This document shows, piece after piece, positions 10,940-29,571 of a stretch of DNA of 37,653 bases (positions are counted from its first letter, which is position 1; every line of letters starts with the position of its first letter). This stretch comes from Lentimicrobiaceae bacterium (GTDB lineage Bacteria; Bacteroidota; Bacteroidia; Bacteroidales; F082): NCBI GenBank assembly GCA_002708315.1, contig PANC01000022.1:1-37653 (forward strand), in the 5' to 3' direction. The notes beneath the pieces are model-generated. The model was not told the DNA's origin and ran no database searches. It worked only from the letters and a program-made list of their open reading frames with translations. Position numbers and translations under genes: made by a program.

Positions 10940-12121
10940 TTACACCTTTGACAGAGCATGATTCATATCACTAATGATATCATCCAAGTCCTCAATTCCC
11001 ACTGATAAACGAACAAGTCCATCGGTAATACCTGCATTTTCTCGCGCTTCAGCGGATAATTTTGAATGTGTCATAGAAGCAGGGTGTTGAATAAGGGTCT
11101 CTATTCCTCCCAAAGATACTGCAAGTAATGCAAGCTCAACATTATTCATCATAGTTTTTCCTGCTTGTATACCACCTTTTAATTCAAAGGAAATCATTGC
11201 TCCTGGGCCGTCCATCTGTGCTTCTGCTAAATCATACTGAGGGTGAGATTTCAACCCTGGGTATAGAACCCAGTCAACTTTTGGGTGTGCTTCAAGAAAT
11301 TCGGCCACCTTCATTGAGTTTTCCTGGGCCTTATCTATCCTAATAGAAAGCGTTTTTAGACCACGACGAACCAACCATGCCTGATGTGGATCCATATTGA
11401 ACCCACCATTTATCATTACATACTTTAAATCATGATACAAAGCTTCGTCTTTTGCAACAAGCATTCCAGCTACTATATCAGCATGGCCATTAATAAACTT
11501 TGTCATTGAATGTAAAACAATATCTGCACCAAATTCAATTGGTCTTTGCAAATATGGACTACAAAATGTATTGTCAACACAAACTATTAAATTATGAGCC
11601 TTGGCAATAGCACAAGCGGCTTTCAAATCTGTTATTCCAACTGTTGGGTTTGCTGGTGTTTCAAGGTATAGCAACTTAGTATTGGGTTTGATTGCCTGTT
11701 TTATATTTTCTACATCAGTGCAATCAACAAAATCAGACTCAATACCAAATTTTGGATACAATTTTTCCATAACTCCCCTTGAAGGACCATATAAGGCATC
11801 ATGACCTATCATATGATCTCCCTGAGATAATATGGTGAGATATACTATATTAACTGCTGCCATTCCAGATGATGCAGATATTCCCCCAAAACCTTTTTCA
11901 AGTTCTGCAACTGCAACCTCTAATTCATCAGTATTTGGATTACCCAATCTTGTATAAATGTAACCCTTCTCCTCACCTGAAAAGCATCTTGCACCATGAT
12001 CCGCATCCCTAAATTGAAATGTGGAAGTTTGATAAATTGGTGTAACCGCGCTTCCTTTATCATCAGGTATTGTTCCCGCATGAACTAATTTTGAATTAAA
12101 ACCGGTATTTTTCTTATTCAT
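10940..12121 (-). CDS. PLP-dependent trans-sulfuration enzyme (cystathionine/methionine gamma-lyase or synthase family)
   Basis: A 393-residue cytoplasmic enzyme of the Cys/Met-metabolism PLP family. Visible hallmarks: YTRLGNPNTD (Tyr56, Arg58, which contact PLP phosphate of the neighbouring subunit), SSGMAAV, LYGPSRG (110-116), ETPANPT, CVDNTFCSPYLQRP with the PLP-ring-binding Asp, and HSMTKFINGHADIVAG containing the PLP lysine, Lys208. Methionine gamma-lyases typically carry a cysteine two residues after the active-site Tyr (YGC); here that position is Pro113. This argues against a classical methionine gamma-lyase and leaves cystathionine gamma-lyase or synthase, or O-acyl-homoserine sulfhydrylase-like activity, open. 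The exact reaction cannot be fixed from sequence. The gene is divergent from the amgK-like operon. Confidence 0.88.
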   Translation of the reverse strand: MNKKNTGFNSKLVHAGTIPDDKGSAVTPIYQTSTFQFRDADHGARCFSGEEKGYIYTRLGNPNTDELEVAVAELEKGFGGISASSGMAAVNIVYLTILSQGDHMIGHDALYGPSRGVMEKLYPKFGIESDFVDCTDVENIKQAIKPNTKLLYLETPANPTVGITDLKAACAIAKAHNLIVCVDNTFCSPYLQRPIEFGADIVLHSMTKFINGHADIVAGMLVAKDEALYHDLKYVMINGGFNMDPHQAWLVRRGLKTLSIRIDKAQENSMKVAEFLEAHPKVDWVLYPGLKSHPQYDLAEAQMDGPGAMISFELKGGIQAGKTMMNNVELALLAVSLGGIETLIQHPASMTHSKLSAEARENAGITDGLVRLSVGIEDLDDIISDMNHALSKV

Positions 12122-12306: not shown

Positions 12307-13728
12307 ATGGCAAACCAACATATAAATAATATAAGGCAATTGATCCGACAAAGTGGCTATAAAAATGAGTATGATATTATTCCGCTGCCAATATCCGGAT
12401 CGAATAGGCTATATTTTCGAGCAATAAATAGGTCAAAACAAAAGGATACGATAATAGCATCATTCAATGAGGATGTAAATGAGAACATTGCACATTATTC
12501 ATTTACTAATCACTTTATGAATATGGGCATTAGTGTTCCGGAGATTATAGCTAGAGACGATTCATATAAATATTTTCTTGTTCAAGACTTGGGAAAAACA
12601 GCACTTTTTGATCTTAATAGACATAAACCCAAAGAGGCCATAGAGTACTATATTAAGGTTGTTAGTGACTTGGTTGAAATACAGGTTGAAGGAATAAAAA
12701 ATATTGATTTAGAGCTAGCCTATCCAGTAAAGCATTTTGATCAAAGGTCGATTATGTGGGACTTGAATTATTTCAAATATTATTTTTTAAAGACTCATAA
12801 TATTAATTTCAACGAAAACCTTCTCGAAATAGATTTTGAAAAATTTACCGAGAAACTGCTACTTAGCGAATCTAAATATTTTAATTACAGAGACTTTCAA
12901 TCCCGAAACATAATGATCCACAAGAATAAACCATGGTACATTGATTTTCAAGGTGGAAGAATGGGACCTCTACAATATGATCTTGTATCTTTACTTAATC
13001 AGGTCAACGCAAAATTAAGTAGTAATGAAAAGAAGATTATTTATACCCATTATCTGAGTGAGTTAAGTAAGAAATTACCAGATAAAGTTGAGATGTTTGA
13101 AAAATATTACCATGATTATGAATATTTTCGTTTAATGCAGGTTATGGGAGCTTACGGTTACAGAGGTATAGTGCAGAAAAAGGCTCACTTTCTTCAAAGC
13201 TTATTACCATCAATAAAATCATTAAATAATTTACTGAAAGGATCTCCTTTTGATGAAGATATGAAGGAGCTGAATAAGATATTTAATCAAATAATAAAAA
13301 TAGATAGCTACTCAACTGTTAAATCTAATACTGTTTTAAATGTTAGCATTAATAGCTTTTCATATAAAATGAAAGGCATACCAATAGATATAACTGGGAA
13401 TGGAGGAGGTCATGTTTTCGACTGCAGAAGCTTACCTAATCCAGGCAGAATAGCCGACTTAAGGGATTTTACAGGCCTTGAGGAGCCAATAATCCAATAT
13501 CTAGAGAAACAAGAGGAAGTTGGTCATTTTTTAAAAAACGCTCACGAAATAATTCTACAAAGTGTAGACAATTACATATTAAGAGGATTTGCTCACCTTC
13601 AAATAAACTTTGGATGTACCGGAGGGAGACACAGGTCTGTTTATTCTGCTAACTTAACACATAAGCTTTTGGAAGATAAGTATCCGAATATTTCCATTAC
13701 TTTAAAACACAATGAATTAAATCAATAG
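12307..13728 (+). CDS. AmgK-like amino-sugar kinase fused to a RapZ C-terminal domain
   Basis: A 473-residue two-domain protein. Residues 1 to about 320 are an aminoglycoside-phosphotransferase-fold kinase: catalytic loop YRDFQSRN (194-201, Asp196, Asn201), metal-binding IDFQGG with Asp213, then RMGPLQYDLVSLL, which closely follows the AmgK pattern (RDxxSRN, IDFQ, GPxxYDLVSLL). AmgK phosphorylates N-acetylmuramate and N-acetylglucosamine at C1. Residues about 345-470 match the C-terminal domain of the RNase adapter RapZ: HVFDCRSLPNP (369-379), a TGLEEPIIQYL segment and INFGCTGGRHRSVY (433-446). The N-terminal P-loop domain of RapZ is absent. A MurU-like gene starts 8 bases after its stop, supporting a role in peptidoglycan-sugar recycling to UDP-MurNAc. 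In E. coli the RapZ C-terminal domain binds glucosamine-6-phosphate and small RNA; here a sensing or regulatory role is inference. Confidence 0.87.
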   Translation: MANQHINNIRQLIRQSGYKNEYDIIPLPISGSNRLYFRAINRSKQKDTIIASFNEDVNENIAHYSFTNHFMNMGISVPEIIARDDSYKYFLVQDLGKTALFDLNRHKPKEAIEYYIKVVSDLVEIQVEGIKNIDLELAYPVKHFDQRSIMWDLNYFKYYFLKTHNINFNENLLEIDFEKFTEKLLLSESKYFNYRDFQSRNIMIHKNKPWYIDFQGGRMGPLQYDLVSLLNQVNAKLSSNEKKIIYTHYLSELSKKLPDKVEMFEKYYHDYEYFRLMQVMGAYGYRGIVQKKAHFLQSLLPSIKSLNNLLKGSPFDEDMKELNKIFNQIIKIDSYSTVKSNTVLNVSINSFSYKMKGIPIDITGNGGGHVFDCRSLPNPGRIADLRDFTGLEEPIIQYLEKQEEVGHFLKNAHEIILQSVDNYILRGFAHLQINFGCTGGRHRSVYSANLTHKLLEDKYPNISITLKHNELNQ

Positions 13729-13736
13729 AAACCCTA

Positions 13737-14474
13737 ATGAAAGCAATAATTCTGGCAGCGGGAATGGGTTCAAGACTGAATCAAATTACAAATGATATGC
13801 CTAAAGCTCTTGTCGAGGTAAACCATATTCCAATGCTTGAAATAACCTTGAACAATTTAAAAAATCAAGGAATAAAGAGCTTTCTCATAAACATTCATCA
13901 TAAAGGTGAGAAAGTAATTGATTTTTTAAGGAGCAAAAATAATTTTGGTGTTGACATTGTTATTTCAGATGAAAGGAATCGACTTCTAGATACTGGTGGT
14001 GCAATTTTAAAAGCTAAAAGTTTTATAAGAGGAGATGAGCCTACTATTGTTCATAACGTTGATATTATATCTAACATTAATATAAATGACCTAAAAGCAT
14101 GCCATTTAAAAAACAATAATACTGCCACTCTCTGTGTAAGAAACCGAAAAACAAGTAGATACCTTTTATTTAATGATAATATGGAATTAACTGGTTGGAA
14201 AAATTCAACCACTGGAGAATTTAGATGGGTAGATAAAGATCAGAAGGAATCGACACCACTTGCATTTAGTGGGATTTATATAATTAGCCCCTCCTTTGCA
14301 GATAACCTTGATATGAATGATAGGTTTTCAATTATTGAAGCATGGTTACAAATGGGGAAAAAGGAAAAAATTATGGCTTATTTGGACGATAGCCCAAATT
14401 GGTTTGATCTTGGAACAATTGAAAGAATAAAAACTGCAGAGAAAAATATAATAGATCGTGAGAACATTTCTTAA
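13737..14474 (+). CDS. MurU-like sugar-1-phosphate nucleotidyltransferase
   Basis: A 245-residue cytoplasmic nucleotidyltransferase. The N-terminal signature MKAIILAAGMGSRLNQIT...MPKALVEV is the nucleotide-binding loop of the family; HNVDIISNI supplies the metal-binding Asp, and FSGIYIISP and WFDLGTIE are late conserved segments. By context, directly downstream of an AmgK-like kinase, the best assignment is MurU, which makes UDP-MurNAc from MurNAc-1-phosphate and UTP, bypassing MurA and the fosfomycin-sensitive route. Sequence alone cannot exclude a GlcNAc-1-phosphate or mannose-1-phosphate substrate, because these enzymes share motifs. It overlaps the next gene by 17 bases, so the three genes form one operon. 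Confidence 0.85.
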   Translation: MKAIILAAGMGSRLNQITNDMPKALVEVNHIPMLEITLNNLKNQGIKSFLINIHHKGEKVIDFLRSKNNFGVDIVISDERNRLLDTGGAILKAKSFIRGDEPTIVHNVDIISNININDLKACHLKNNNTATLCVRNRKTSRYLLFNDNMELTGWKNSTTGEFRWVDKDQKESTPLAFSGIYIISPSFADNLDMNDRFSIIEAWLQMGKKEKIMAYLDDSPNWFDLGTIERIKTAEKNIIDRENIS

Positions 14475-17247
14475 TAGAGTAGCTAAAAAGATAATAGAAG
14501 ATGAAATCAATGGGCCAGAATCCATCGTAATACTTCCCAACAGAAGATCTGAAGTTTTTCTTAAAAAAGAAATAAAATCAATAAATGATTCTGAAATATG
14601 GCTTCCAGATTTCTTTCCCATAGATGTTTTTATTCAAAGAATATCCGAATTAAGAAAAGCTGATAATATCTCTTTAGCTCTAGATTTATTTAAAATTTAT
14701 GACAAACTAGAAGGCGATAATGCAAAGTCATTGGATGAATTTCTAACATGGACTCCAATCATTTTTAGTGACTTCAATGATATTGATAATGCGATGGCTG
14801 ATGCCAAAACTTTATATGAAGACCTATCATCAGTTAAAGCTATTGAACAATGGAGCCCTGGTGAAGAAAAGCTTACTCCACTACAACAAAATTATTTGAG
14901 GTTCTTTAACTCAATGTATGAATACTATAGTTCACTGAGAGAGACCATGATATCCAAAAGTGCTGGATATCAAGGGTTCATAAACAGATATCTTGCTGAA
15001 AATATCCAAGAAAAAAGTATCCCATGGCGCAAATTCCTTATTGTGGGAATAAATGCTCTAACAGAATCAGAATTAATTATATTTAAATATCTAAATGATA
15101 ATTTCAATGTTGAATTTCAATGGGATATTGATGAGTATTATTTTAACGAATCAAACAATAAAATCAACAATGAAGCTGGGAAATACATAAAGTATAATAT
15201 TGATAGGTTAAAGCTTAAAATACCTAATAATATCCATAATTATCTTAGAAGCGAATCCAAAAGGATTAGAATTATTGGGGTACCAAAAAATATTGGTCAG
15301 GTAAAATTTATTGGTCAAGAACTGCTGAATAACAATTCAATAAATAATTCAAAAACAGCCATTGTATTGGGTGATGAAAGGCTAATAGTTCCCCTAATTC
15401 ATTCTCTTCCAGATAATGAAAGCAACAAGTACAATCTAACACTTGGATATCCCCTTAGCAATAGCTCTGCCGAATTTTTTATTGTAAGTCTTTTTGATGT
15501 TTTAGAATCTCAACAAGGTAACAAAAGCAAATTGGAGACATCAATACTTTTAAAACTTTTATCGAATAGTATTACAAAATTAATATTGGGAAATAAGGTG
15601 TGTAATAAATGGTTTAACAACTTTGTTGAAAGTGGAAATTATTATGTAAATATTGAAGATGTTCAATCTATTTCCGATCAATTAGGAAAGAAAACTAACA
15701 ATATCATATCAATAGTATTATTAACCTTTAAGAATGGTAATTTAGGTTATTTTCTCAATCAATTAGAAAATCTTCTCATAGACTGTGTAGATACTGTTTT
15801 TTCGTCTAATATTTTAATAAGAGAAGAAGTTCAATCGCTAATCACGATTATCATAAAAGTTCAGGGGTTAATTGCTTCCTATAAAGATGTTGGAAAATAT
15901 CAGGTTCTTAAAAAGATAATTAAGCAATTATTTATGTTAAGCAAGATAAACCTAATTGGAGAGCCACTAGCAGGAACACAAGTTATGGGAATGCTTGAGA
16001 CTAGAACCCTTGATTTTGAAAATATATACATACTATCTGTTAACGAGGGTGTACTTCCTAAAACTAATTCAATTGATTCATTTATACCATTTGATATTAG
16101 AAGGGAACAGAAACTACCTCTACCATCATATAAATCTGGTGTTTATGCTTATCATTTTTATAGGTTACTGCAAAGAGCTAAAAACATAACGCTACTATAT
16201 AGCACTGATTCTGATAAACTGGGCGGTGGCGAAAAAAGCAGGTTCATCCAACAAATTGAAAATGAACTATCCCTAGTTAATAAAAATGTCACATTAACGA
16301 ATGAAATGCTCACAAGCAATATCAATAACTATGGCAAAGATTTATCAGAAATAGTAATTGAAAAAAACAAAGTAATTATAGGTAAGGTTAGGGATCTATC
16401 AGAAAGAGGATATAGCGCATCATCTCTAATTAGCTATATTACTTGTCCGCTTAAATTTTATTTTCAATATGTATTAAGAATGGACGCCAATTCACCATTG
16501 CTAAAGAATATTGAGGCAAATACATTTGGCCTAGCCATACACGGGGTTTTGGAAAAAATTTATAAGCCATTTAAAGGCTCTAAAGTTGATCATATAAAAC
16601 TTGCTAATCATATTGGGAATACCTCAAAAATGTTACAGGAAGAATTTGAGAAGCTAAATCCTGGAACCGTTATGAGCTCGGGAAAAAATCTTTTGCTGCT
16701 AGAAGTTGCAAAATCATATATTGATAGGTTTCTATTGTGGGATAAAAATAATCAACAACGACAACCATCATTAATAGAAAGTACTGAGGGTAAATACGTA
16801 ACCAAGTTACCGAAGGATAGTAATGTCAATATTAAAGGATATATTGATAGAATTGATCTTGATTTAAGCAGTGGAAAAACAAGGATAATTGACTACAAAA
16901 CAGGCGTGGTTATGCCTAGCGATTTAAAAATAAAAAATACGGATGATTTATTCCTGGACCCAAAACACTCAAAGGCATTTCAGTTAATTTATTATGCCTG
17001 GATTTATAGTATCTCTAATACGGATAAAAACATAGAAACGGGTATAATTTCCATGCGTAAGATATCCAACGGGTTTATTCCATTACAGCTAACAGAGTAC
17101 GATGATTTAAAAGATTACTTTGATGAATTTGGAGAATCCGTTTATGAACTTATACAAGACATTGGGGATACAAAGAAAGATTTTGTTCAGACTACCGAAA
17201 AGAAAAGGTGTGAATACTGCAACTTCAAAACCATATGTAACAGATAA
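14458..17247 (+). CDS. AddB-like PD-(D/E)XK exonuclease/helicase-related subunit
   Basis: A 929-residue protein resembling the AddB subunit of AddAB, the recombinational DNA-break-processing complex. The C-terminal third is a RecB-family nuclease: HGVLEKIY (conserved His), IKGYIDRIDLD (Asp), IIDYKTG (Asp812, Lys814) and the QLIYYAWIY segment. Four cysteines fit the AddB iron-sulfur staple: Cys663 in ITCPLKFYF, then Cys918, Cys921 and Cys927 in RCEYCNFKTICNR. The N-terminal part is a degenerate helicase-like region in which I see no Walker A motif, so catalytic unwinding would come from an AddA partner, not present here. The start is a GTG inside the end of the murU-like gene (17-base overlap); no ATG gives a better N-terminus. 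Confidence 0.85.
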   Translation: MRTFLNRVAKKIIEDEINGPESIVILPNRRSEVFLKKEIKSINDSEIWLPDFFPIDVFIQRISELRKADNISLALDLFKIYDKLEGDNAKSLDEFLTWTPIIFSDFNDIDNAMADAKTLYEDLSSVKAIEQWSPGEEKLTPLQQNYLRFFNSMYEYYSSLRETMISKSAGYQGFINRYLAENIQEKSIPWRKFLIVGINALTESELIIFKYLNDNFNVEFQWDIDEYYFNESNNKINNEAGKYIKYNIDRLKLKIPNNIHNYLRSESKRIRIIGVPKNIGQVKFIGQELLNNNSINNSKTAIVLGDERLIVPLIHSLPDNESNKYNLTLGYPLSNSSAEFFIVSLFDVLESQQGNKSKLETSILLKLLSNSITKLILGNKVCNKWFNNFVESGNYYVNIEDVQSISDQLGKKTNNIISIVLLTFKNGNLGYFLNQLENLLIDCVDTVFSSNILIREEVQSLITIIIKVQGLIASYKDVGKYQVLKKIIKQLFMLSKINLIGEPLAGTQVMGMLETRTLDFENIYILSVNEGVLPKTNSIDSFIPFDIRREQKLPLPSYKSGVYAYHFYRLLQRAKNITLLYSTDSDKLGGGEKSRFIQQIENELSLVNKNVTLTNEMLTSNINNYGKDLSEIVIEKNKVIIGKVRDLSERGYSASSLISYITCPLKFYFQYVLRMDANSPLLKNIEANTFGLAIHGVLEKIYKPFKGSKVDHIKLANHIGNTSKMLQEEFEKLNPGTVMSSGKNLLLLEVAKSYIDRFLLWDKNNQQRQPSLIESTEGKYVTKLPKDSNVNIKGYIDRIDLDLSSGKTRIIDYKTGVVMPSDLKIKNTDDLFLDPKHSKAFQLIYYAWIYSISNTDKNIETGIISMRKISNGFIPLQLTEYDDLKDYFDEFGESVYELIQDIGDTKKDFVQTTEKKRCEYCNFKTICNR

Positions 17248-28173: not shown

Positions 28174-29571
28174 TTATTTTTCTTTATTCTTAACAATCTG
28201 TGCAATAAGTTTACCTTCCATAACAACCTTATCGCCTACATAAGCTTTTCCAATCATTGAGCATATTCCTCGTTTTATAGGCCCAGTAAGTTCGATTGAA
28301 AAAATCAATACATCTCCTGGTCCTACTTTAGAGCGAAAACGAACTTCTTCTATCTTCAAGAAGTAAGTGGAATACAGCTCAGGTTCATCAACTGAATTAA
28401 GAACAAAAATACCACCAGCTTGAGCCATTGCTTCAACCTGAAGTACTCCTGGCATGATTGGCTCATCTGGAAAATGACCAACAAAAAATGGCTCGTTTAA
28501 GGTTACTGATTTCATTGCAACAATATGGTCGTCTGTCAATACTAGAACCTTGTCAACAAGGAGAAATGGTGGCCTATGAGGTAATATTTTCTTGATTTGA
28601 TTTATGTCATAATATGGCTCTGCATAAATATCAAAGGGTGGTTTCTTTAACATATGTGTATTATTTAATTCATTAAATATCTTTTGACCAAATTCAGTAT
28701 TTGCCTGATGACCTGGTCTAGAAGCTGTTATTTTTCCTTTAAGAGGCATACCTAACAGCGCCAAATCACCAATTACATCCAGCAACTTATGACGAGCAGG
28801 TTCATTTGAAAAGTGCATGTCAAGGTTGTTCAAGATACCATTTGGTTTTACTTTAACCTTAGGTTTATTAAAAAGTTCAGCAAGATTATCCAACTCCTCC
28901 TGAGATACTGCTCTATTAACAAAGACTATCGCATTGTTTAGGTCTCCACCTTTGATAAGATTATTTTGCAACAGAAATTCAAGCTCATGAAGGAATACAA
29001 AGGTTCTACACTGGGCAATCTCTGATTCAAATTTGTTTATATCGTCCAAGGTTGCTATTTGCTTACCTAATATTTCAGTTTCAAAATCAATTGTTACTGT
29101 AGCTGAGAACTTATCAGCAGGCTCAATTAGCATCTCAATATTCTTATCAGGTATTTTATAGGATATTGGTTCTGTAATTTCAATATACTTTCTATTGGCT
29201 TTTTGTTCAACAATTCCAGCCTCTTTAATTGCATTTATGAAATGTATTGAGGATCCATCCTTAATGGGTATCTCTTCCATATCCACATCAACCATCACAT
29301 TATCAATGCCTAAGCCCATAAAAGCGGCCAATAAATGTTCAATTGTATACAAGCTATAGCCATTTTTTGCAAGCGTAGTGCCCCTGGCTGTGCTTACAAC
29401 AAGATTTATATCTGCATCAATAATTGGTTTTTCATCAATATCAACTCTTCTGAACTTTATGCCATGATTTTCTGGAGCACTGTGAAGTGTTATTTGTCCA
29501 AGCTGTCCAGTATGCAAACCAGTACCACTTAGGGTTATTGATTTATCTATCGTTTTTTGTTTATCAACCAT
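28174..29571 (-). CDS. lpxC/fabZ: Bifunctional LpxC deacetylase / FabZ dehydratase
   Basis: A 465-residue fusion. Residues 1 to about 305 are UDP-3-O-acyl-GlcNAc deacetylase (LpxC), the committed step of lipid A synthesis: zinc ligands His79 (in TIEHLLAA), His261 and Asp265 (in ARHKLLD), with Glu78 as base and His288 in PGHQAN. Residues about 320-465 are (3R)-hydroxyacyl-ACP dehydratase (FabZ): ILPHRPPFLLVD (329-340), catalytic His366 in GHFPDEPIMPG and Glu380 in VEAMAQAGG. All catalytic residues are intact. The fusion is characteristic of Bacteroidota and joins two enzymes that compete for 3-hydroxyacyl-ACP. It starts a unit with lpxA, efp and the second lpxD-like gene and has its own promoter candidate. 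Confidence 0.97.
   Translation of the reverse strand: MVDKQKTIDKSITLSGTGLHTGQLGQITLHSAPENHGIKFRRVDIDEKPIIDADINLVVSTARGTTLAKNGYSLYTIEHLLAAFMGLGIDNVMVDVDMEEIPIKDGSSIHFINAIKEAGIVEQKANRKYIEITEPISYKIPDKNIEMLIEPADKFSATVTIDFETEILGKQIATLDDINKFESEIAQCRTFVFLHELEFLLQNNLIKGGDLNNAIVFVNRAVSQEELDNLAELFNKPKVKVKPNGILNNLDMHFSNEPARHKLLDVIGDLALLGMPLKGKITASRPGHQANTEFGQKIFNELNNTHMLKKPPFDIYAEPYYDINQIKKILPHRPPFLLVDKVLVLTDDHIVAMKSVTLNEPFFVGHFPDEPIMPGVLQVEAMAQAGGIFVLNSVDEPELYSTYFLKIEEVRFRSKVGPGDVLIFSIELTGPIKRGICSMIGKAYVGDKVVMEGKLIAQIVKNKEK

Follow-up and report, generated by a model that had tools for sequence, protein, structure and literature searches.

A RapZ C-terminal domain fused to an AmgK-like kinase beside murU: a possible cysteine-dependent phosphatase in muramic acid recycling

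What does a RapZ C-terminal domain (RapZ-C) do when it is joined to a kinase and placed next to a murU-like gene? The question is raised by a locus of a Lentimicrobiaceae bacterium (Bacteroidota; assembly GCA_002708315.1), in a window comprising 37,653 nucleotides of contig PANC01000022.1. Here a single forward-strand gene with an ATG start (12307..13728) encodes a 473-residue protein, in which an AmgK-like kinase of the APH fold (residues 1-335, 12307..13311) is followed by RapZ-C (residues 345-471, 13339..13719). A murU-like nucleotidyltransferase of 245 residues (13737..14474, same strand) starts 8 bases past the stop of the fusion gene.

Pfam recognises the two halves as PF01636 (APH) at residues 68-233, scoring 28.9 bits where the cut-off is 23.2 (E 1.2e-6), and as PF22740 (the C-terminal domain of RapZ) at residues 345-471, scoring 102.9 bits where it is 27 (E 1.7e-29), and the RapZ P-loop domain (PF03668) has no Pfam match in the fusion protein. 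The NCBIfam RapZ model matches residues 336-470 with its C-terminal part only (E 9.1e-27, 94.3 bits, below the cut-off of 244), E. coli RapZ structures are matched from residue 344 (E 1.4e-13), and a search of the bacterium's own genome places RapZ-C at 13339..13719 (E 1.9e-30). The NCBIfam AmgK model covers residues 34-276 (E 6.6e-20) at 71.5 bits, below its cut-off of 550, so the equivalog score is not reached. The downstream gene (PF00483, E 3.9e-21) matches two MurU models, both below cut-off (E 1.5e-33 for the NCBIfam model, 116.6 bits against 250; E 8.2e-31 for the other). In the structure predicted by AF2 (mean pLDDT 93.3, pTM 0.80), the best fold match of the kinase half is 3csv (E 3.8e-12; TM 0.53 on the query length, 0.76 on that of the target), and RapZ-C superposes on the E. 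coli RapZ C-terminal domain (RapZ-CTD, 5o5s) with TM 0.83/0.91, 1.8 Å and 32% identity (Foldseek). The original prediction of a single protein that unites an AmgK-like kinase with RapZ-C (residues 345-470), has no P-loop domain and is coupled to murU is thus borne out by Pfam and NCBIfam, and PF03668 is found in none of 61 related genomes, the bacterium's own included.

The motifs quoted in that prediction lie at residues 194-201 (YRDFQSRN), 212-215 (IDFQ) and 220-230 (GPLQYDLVSLL) of the kinase half, and at residues 370-379 (VFDCRSLPNP) and 435-445 (FGCTGGRHRSV) of RapZ-C. RDFQSRN (R195-N201, 12889..12909), presumably the catalytic loop, and DFQ (D213-Q215, 12943..12951), which we take to be the metal site, hold the APH-type catalytic residues R195, D196, N201 and D213; all four are intact and, like Q215, invariant across 72 aligned rows. 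Median identity to the window protein is 49.2% for RapZ-C against 40.1% for the kinase, and RapZ-C is the higher of the two in every one of 71 rows.

Outside the window, 127 of 139 classified loci have the fusion too, which rules out an assembly artefact. The architecture is old and widespread: RapZ-C is present in 53 of the 61 related genomes, and relatives are found in contigs of Elusimicrobia, Marinimicrobia, Chlorobi and KSB1. The expected murU neighbour lies directly downstream in 96 of the 127 fused loci, and also in 8 of the 12 loci where RapZ-C is unfused. In several lineages (loci L135-L140, L143 and L146) the kinase, RapZ-C and murU stand side by side, each as a gene of its own. Two loci (L141, L142) contain orphan rapZ-C genes away from the kinase, which is encoded elsewhere in those genomes. 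A B3/4 domain precedes the kinase in one locus (L147) and looks incidental. Of 12 genomes examined, 4 have a full-length RapZ alongside the fusion (three bear the title Elusimicrobia or Elusimicrobiota, the fourth just 'bacterium'); the fusion therefore does not simply take the place of RapZ, and the idea of a general replacement was rejected. The suggested different wiring of GlmS control is unsupported in that form, and nothing was found linking the fusion to glmS. Among the best-ranked papers of a literature search, none describes the fusion in its title or abstract opening.

RapZ-C shares with the E. coli RapZ-CTD (5o5s, 5o5o, 8b0i) its fold and the C-T-G-G-x-H-R-S pocket loop. In the window protein this loop is CTGGRHR (C437-R443, 13615..13635), corresponding to the C247-R253 anion pocket of E. 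coli. The sequence G-C-T-G-G-x-H-R-S (C-x5-R-S) is present in all 136 complete RapZ-C copies, and in the predicted model the loop sits between a strand and a helix. Compared with E. coli RapZ, the fusion lacks both the P-loop domain and the basic RNA tail, and has gained a glycine-rich insert GNGGG (residues 364-368, 13396..13410), which is a gap in all five full-length RapZ proteins aligned (E. coli and four others) and whose G367 and G368 are kept in 109 of 109 RapZ-C rows. Those five proteins have DVR where the fusion has DCR (D372-R374, 13420..13428), a motif found by pattern in 135 of the 136 complete copies, the remaining one being unmatched by the pattern. B. subtilis YvcJ, unlike the fusion, has a Walker A/B nucleotide-binding part and is not joined to a sugar kinase. 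The pocket loop of RapZ is kept; pocket residue H190 is replaced by Gly in all but 5 of 109 rows (104). Since the four non-E. coli full-length RapZ proteins have Tyr or Asn at this position, its change to Gly is, as far as the alignment goes, no argument by itself against ligand binding.

A strand-Cys-x5-Arg-Ser-helix loop is also common to RapZ-C and the cysteine C-x5-R phosphatases, which include PTP, DSP and Cdc25. Foldseek gave no significant match of RapZ-C to a PTP, rhodanese or LMW-PTP fold; only RapZ was significant, and the PTP-type matches (MKP5) stood at ranks 49 and 50 among the best 50 rows with E 3.0. The C-x5-R loop is therefore a local resemblance and not a sign of fold membership, and a place for RapZ-C in the PTP superfamily is unsupported by Foldseek.

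The explanation that we favour, while holding it short of probable, is that RapZ-C acts as a cysteine-dependent amino-sugar-6-phosphate phosphatase and fills the place of MupP beside AmgK and MurU. It builds on the observed architecture, conservation, spread, invariant loop and gene co-occurrence and on published work on RapZ; that the domain is catalytic, what it and the kinase act upon and in which order the reactions run is inferred. The locus would be a MurNAc salvage unit yielding UDP-MurNAc. The RapZ-C half would act on an amino-sugar 6-phosphate, the likeliest being the MurNAc-6-phosphate that AnmK produces, and would remove the 6-phosphate with the cysteine of its C-x5-R-S loop as nucleophile. 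Once freed, the MurNAc would be phosphorylated at C1 by the kinase half and then joined to UTP by the MurU-like enzyme. The fusion would be a two-step enzyme of the MupP-AmgK type with an unrelated phosphatase domain. It has the APH fold, motifs and murU neighbour in common with AmgK and MurU, and differs in that the unit falls below both equivalog cut-offs and RapZ-C lies beyond the AmgK-model match (34-276). The proposed step is identical to that of MupP, the MurNAc-6P phosphatase of Pseudomonas acting between AnmK and AmgK (excerpt of PMC5371407); MupP, however, is a HAD enzyme, and the fold of RapZ-C is different.

The stronger conservation of RapZ-C relative to the kinase is counted in support of a phosphatase. 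Fusion and fission among neighbouring genes are usual for successive enzymes, so the occurrence of kinase, RapZ-C and murU either fused or as separate neighbours is likewise counted in its favour. The same holds for the invariant loop in its strand-loop-helix setting, together with the essential Cys247 of E. coli: in excerpts of the RapZ literature, sulphate or malonate sits in the pocket loop together with H190, RapZ loses its function in the C247S and C247A variants, and the pocket loop is needed too. Further support comes from the binding of GlcN6P by the E. coli RapZ-CTD (KD 10 nM by SPR, excerpt of PMC7073468) and from activities reported for two other proteins in passages that do not name the responsible domain. 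These are the NTPase and phosphatase activity of YvcJ, a RapZ homologue that, like the RapZ-C of the fusion, has no RNA tail (PMC7525490), and the phosphatase activity of Xanthomonas HpaP (PMC10782981), which is probably a RapZ homologue, judging from the manner of its citation in the excerpt of PMC7073468.

A phylum sample of 296 genomes was scored for AnmK, MurQ, RapZ-C and the kinase. AnmK makes MurNAc-6-phosphate, and MurQ consumes it. RapZ-C is present in 13 of 13 genomes with AnmK and without MurQ (7 families), against 13 of 195 with both (3 of 43 families by hand count), which also supports a phosphatase; the Fisher tests on these patterns ignore descent. The kinase occurs without RapZ-C in 64 genomes, all lacking AnmK and MurQ; this too is counted for a phosphatase, in a contrast that rests on two lineages (63 genomes of family f42 and G069). 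AnmK alone was rejected as a predictor of RapZ-C, being present in 45 of 53 relatives with RapZ-C and 5 of 8 without it (p 0.15, not significant, in 61 relatives). MurQ was added after this test; the AnmK pattern is telling only once MurQ is included, and the combined pattern was tested only in the phylum sample. In the three kinase-only loci read, a murU-like gene lies beside the kinase, and in two of them (L160, L161) a NamZ gene adjoins the pair. NamZ releases free MurNAc, so no phosphatase would be needed there. Presence of NamZ is non-discriminating (285 of 296 genomes), and it has no match in kinase-only genome G069.

Counted against a phosphatase are the absence of a PTP-like fold match, the lack of AnmK in 10 of 36 RapZ-C genomes (7 of these 10 also without MurQ) and the presence of MurQ in 16 (13 with AnmK, 3 without). 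No AnmK-like ORF was found beside the salvage unit in the flanks examined. HAD phosphatases are common, and one of them could be the real MupP. The MupP model (NCBIfam NF009696) gives some match in 46 of 61 relatives, none reaching the cut-off (best 107.6 of 359 bits), an absence that is uninformative because 14 of 14 controls, Caulobacter included, also fall below it. Among 19 HAD_2 matches in five genomes, 10 were scanned, with a best MupP-model score of 74.7 of 359 bits.

HAD genes are also part of the most serious alternative, a plausible one to which we give about a third of our belief: RapZ-C would bind GlcN6P or MurNAc-6P and switch the attached kinase on or off, acting in trans where it is a separate gene, and a HAD phosphatase would carry out the MupP step. 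GlcN6P binding by the E. coli domain fits such a role, as full RapZ acts as a sensor and does not respond to GlcN or Glc6P (excerpt of PMC7073468); the invariant pocket loop, the tight association of RapZ-C with the kinase and the AnmK/MurQ pattern fit it as well. Orphan rapZ-C and separate operon genes are less usual for a regulator acting in cis, the invariant Cys is not obviously required just for binding, and the 64 genomes with a domain-free kinase indicate that the kinase fold does not need RapZ-C. The built-in sensor of the original prediction is thus unsupported in that form, RapZ-C also occurring as a separate operon gene or away from the kinase, although sensing in the wider sense survives. 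The presence of RapZ-C is associated with the way MurNAc-6-phosphate is handled, which fits an enzyme for that metabolite no less well than a sensor.

It is improbable that RapZ-C merely dimerises the kinase or keeps MurU near for channelling, its pocket binding the phosphate of an intermediate without chemistry: strand 179-182 mediates self-interaction of the E. coli domain (excerpt of PMC5737377) and the fusion adjoins murU, but this reading accounts neither for the invariance of the C-x5-R-S loop nor for the orphan genes nor for the AnmK/MurQ link. Least likely, and disfavoured by the missing basic tail, is an RNA-binding or RNase-recruiting role like that of enterobacterial RapZ, also raised by the original prediction: RapZ-C is homologous to an RNA-binding domain whose pocket residues contact RNA in E. 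coli (seven basic contact residues named, excerpt of PMC9841335), and three of the seven positions are mostly basic (R184 kept in 109/109 rows, K170 Lys/Arg in 102/109, R196 Lys/Arg in 82/109), but R238 is Phe/Tyr in 109/109 rows, K251 is Gln in 63/109, K170 is Met in the window protein, K194 and R211 vary, the last 20 residues have a mean net charge of 0.5 (range -4 to 6 in 109 rows) against +7 in E. coli RapZ, no Rfam family reaches its gathering score in the window, and the RNA-binding part of RapZ is reported to be confined to Enterobacteriaceae (excerpt of PMC7073468).

More broadly, and held more loosely than the phosphatase reading of this locus, RapZ-C may represent a new family of cysteine-dependent amino-sugar-6-phosphate phosphatases. 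Bacteroidota, Elusimicrobia and relatives would use it, joined to AmgK, as a non-orthologous counterpart of MupP, and in enterobacteria the same catalytic pocket would have been recruited as RapZ's sensor of GlcN6P and clamp for RNA. If so, an origin in a phosphatase family would explain why Cys247 is essential in enterobacterial RapZ and why the GlcN6P crystal seems to hold a transformed product. The fusion is a concrete candidate for the MurNAc-6-phosphate step in muramic acid recycling by Bacteroidota, and the locus lets the role of the conserved RapZ pocket outside enterobacteria be tested directly. If RapZ-C is a sensor, the fusion would be a direct, enzyme-linked version of amino-sugar feedback; if it is catalytic, a well-studied RNA-based regulator may originate in a cell-wall recycling enzyme.

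The fusion gene (12307-13728, + strand) encodes a 473-residue protein in which an APH kinase match (residues 68-233, E 1.2e-6) precedes the RapZ C-terminal domain, RapZ-C (PF22740, residues 345-471, E 1.7e-29), bearing out the original prediction that an AmgK-like kinase and RapZ-C share one polypeptide. The MurU-like gene predicted 8 bases downstream is likewise present (13737-14474, + strand), and its 245-residue product matches the MurU model (E 1.5e-33); the RapZ, AmgK and MurU model scores of the two proteins all lie below the equivalog cut-offs. The first 17 bases of the next ORF (14458-17247) overlap the end of the murU-like ORF, and its 929-residue product carries a PD-(D/E)XK nuclease domain at the C-terminus, with AddB-type similarity below cut-off. 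On the opposite strand, 5' of the fusion gene, lies the gene of a Cys/Met-metabolism PLP enzyme similar to methionine gamma-lyase (10940-12121), and elsewhere in the window a single 465-residue protein contains LpxC and FabA-like domains (28174-29571).

An AlphaFold2 model of the fusion, built on a 72-row alignment, has a mean pLDDT of 93.3 and a pTM of 0.80. The best fold match of the kinase half is a putative aminoglycoside phosphotransferase (3csv), and R195, D196, N201 and D213 are invariant across the 72 rows. Modelled alone (pLDDT 94.4, pTM 0.89), RapZ-C superposes on E. coli RapZ 5o5s (Foldseek TM 0.83/0.91, 1.8 A, 32% identity). The best 17 Foldseek matches are all E. coli RapZ chains, and among the matches listed those beyond E. 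coli RapZ have E 0.35 or worse, including the phosphatase MKP5 (E 3.0).

The kinase-RapZ-C architecture is real and conserved. PF22740 is present in 53 of 61 relatives and in 36 of 296 genomes of a phylum-wide sample. A tblastn search with the fusion protein against named genome contigs gave 230 relatives, the best 80 of which carry titles including Bacteroidales, Prolixibacteraceae, Muribaculaceae, Chlorobi, Elusimicrobia, Marinimicrobia and KSB1; the closest of these is from a Lentimicrobiaceae MAG (L032, 89% identity over the best segment). In a survey of 139 non-window loci, which excludes re-fetched copies of one place but includes a few apparent near-duplicates (L023/L036 and L024/L039 have identical scores), the two domains are fused in 127. 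The expected murU neighbour lies directly 3' in 96 of these and within 4 kb in 5 more; it was not found in 24 (0.9 to 4 kb downstream examined), and 2 have <700 bases of downstream sequence. Among the 12 unfused loci, kinase, RapZ-C and murU are consecutive in 8, one has the kinase and RapZ-C without murU (L145) and one is interrupted by the contig end (L144). The other two hold orphan rapZ-C genes (L141:3583-3993 and L142:3435-3836), whose 7 kb stretches match neither kinase nor murU, the kinase lying elsewhere in their genomes; the L141 neighbours include an MFS transporter gene. One locus encodes a 736-residue protein with a B3/4 domain N-terminal to kinase-RapZ-C (L147:3073-5283).

The RapZ P-loop domain (PF03668) is absent from the genomes of all 61 relatives. 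When 12 genomes that carry named loci were examined, four proved to contain both the fusion and a full RapZ, in open frames of 291-313 residues with P-loop and RapZ-C domains (L046, L047, L087 and L102; three titled Elusimicrobia or Elusimicrobiota, L046 only 'bacterium'); one more has a weak PF03668 match below cut-off (L083), and the remaining seven show no match. The two proteins can thus be separate players in one cell.

RapZ-C is better conserved than the kinase in 71/71 rows (medians of 49.2% versus 40.1% identity to the window protein; invariant columns 22/126 versus 25/324). Across 109 aligned rows (107 from fusions, the window copy among the rows, and 2 from separate genes, with 2 truncated loci dropped), C373, R374, N378, P379, R426, G436, C437, T438, G439, G440, H442, R443, S444 and H468 are identical. 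The E. coli RapZ pocket comprises H190, T248, G249, H252 and R253, with C247 nearby. Its loop is retained: GCTGGxHRS occurs in 136/136 complete copies (3 partial copies dropped, window not counted). The H190 position is Gly in 104/109 rows and His in 5/109. Fusion-type RapZ-C also differs from E. coli RapZ and four full-length RapZ of other genomes in a Gly-rich insert and in DCR replacing DVR. Seven basic residues of E. coli RapZ contact GlmZ (PMC9841335). Of these positions, R184 never varies (109/109); a basic residue occupies K170 in 102/109 rows (Met in the window protein), R196 in 82/109 and K251 in 45/109, R238 is Phe/Tyr in 109/109, and K194 and R211 are variable. The last 20 residues have a mean net charge of 0.5 (-4 to 6), compared with +7 in E. 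coli RapZ. The RNA-binding part of RapZ is described as limited to Enterobacteriaceae, while the putative GlcN6P site is conserved across diverse homologues (PMC7073468).

AnmK produces MurNAc-6-phosphate (PMC7670621), and MurQ is the etherase that acts on it in the catabolic route (PMC5371407). In the 296-genome sample, RapZ-C was found in 36 genomes, AmgK-like kinase (E <= 1e-15) in 100, AnmK (E <= 0.001) in 208 and MurQ (E <= 1e-40) in 211; wherever RapZ-C was found, the kinase is present too (36/36). RapZ-C occurs in 13/13 genomes with AnmK and without MurQ, a set including the window genome (a 2.0 Mb draft, 77.8% complete), against 13/195 with both (Fisher p 7e-14 per genome, shared descent ignored; one AnmK match is weak, G276, E 1.2e-10). 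Per family the counts are 7/7 against 3/43 (p 1.2e-6, shared descent ignored; 43 and 3 are hand counts, and family f28 falls on both sides). When AnmK alone was compared among the 61 relatives, it was present in 45/53 with RapZ-C and 5/8 without (p 0.15). RapZ-C occurs in 3/16 genomes with MurQ only; of the 72 with neither enzyme, 7 have RapZ-C, 64 the kinase only and 1 neither. All genomes with the kinase but without RapZ-C (63 of family f42, and G069) lack both AnmK and MurQ. The kinase adjoins a MurU-like gene in 3/3 such loci read, and NamZ is nearby in two (L160, L161), with no match anywhere in the genome of the third (G069, L162). In L160 and L161 the order kinase, MurU-like gene, NamZ forms a compact muramic acid salvage cluster; the L160 MurU-like gene ends in hexapeptide-type repeats. 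AmgK and MurU are attributed to T. forsythia (Bacteroidia), with no AnmK predicted (PMC7670621).

A MurNAc-6-phosphate phosphatase, the role of MupP in Pseudomonas, is required wherever a genome combines AnmK, AmgK and MurU without MurQ, and within the kinase-murU unit RapZ-C is the obvious candidate. NTPase and phosphatase activities are reported for YvcJ (PMC7525490), and ATPase and phosphatase activity for HpaP (PMC10782981), which is cited alongside YvcJ in a statement on RapZ in distant species (PMC7073468); the word 'phosphatase' is absent from the main text of the paper describing the E. coli pocket. A sensor of amino-sugar phosphates, for which the E. coli C-terminal domain offers a precedent in binding GlcN6P with a KD of 10 nM (PMC7073468), would be the somewhat less likely role. 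We lean towards a putative phosphatase because the Cys loop is invariant, RapZ-C also occurs as split and orphan genes, and its presence follows the AnmK/MurQ pattern. The 10 exceptions without AnmK, together with the absence of a PTP-like fold, keep this assignment tentative, at slightly less than an even chance. RapZ-C in these bacteria probably serves amino-sugar-6-phosphate metabolism in MurNAc salvage.
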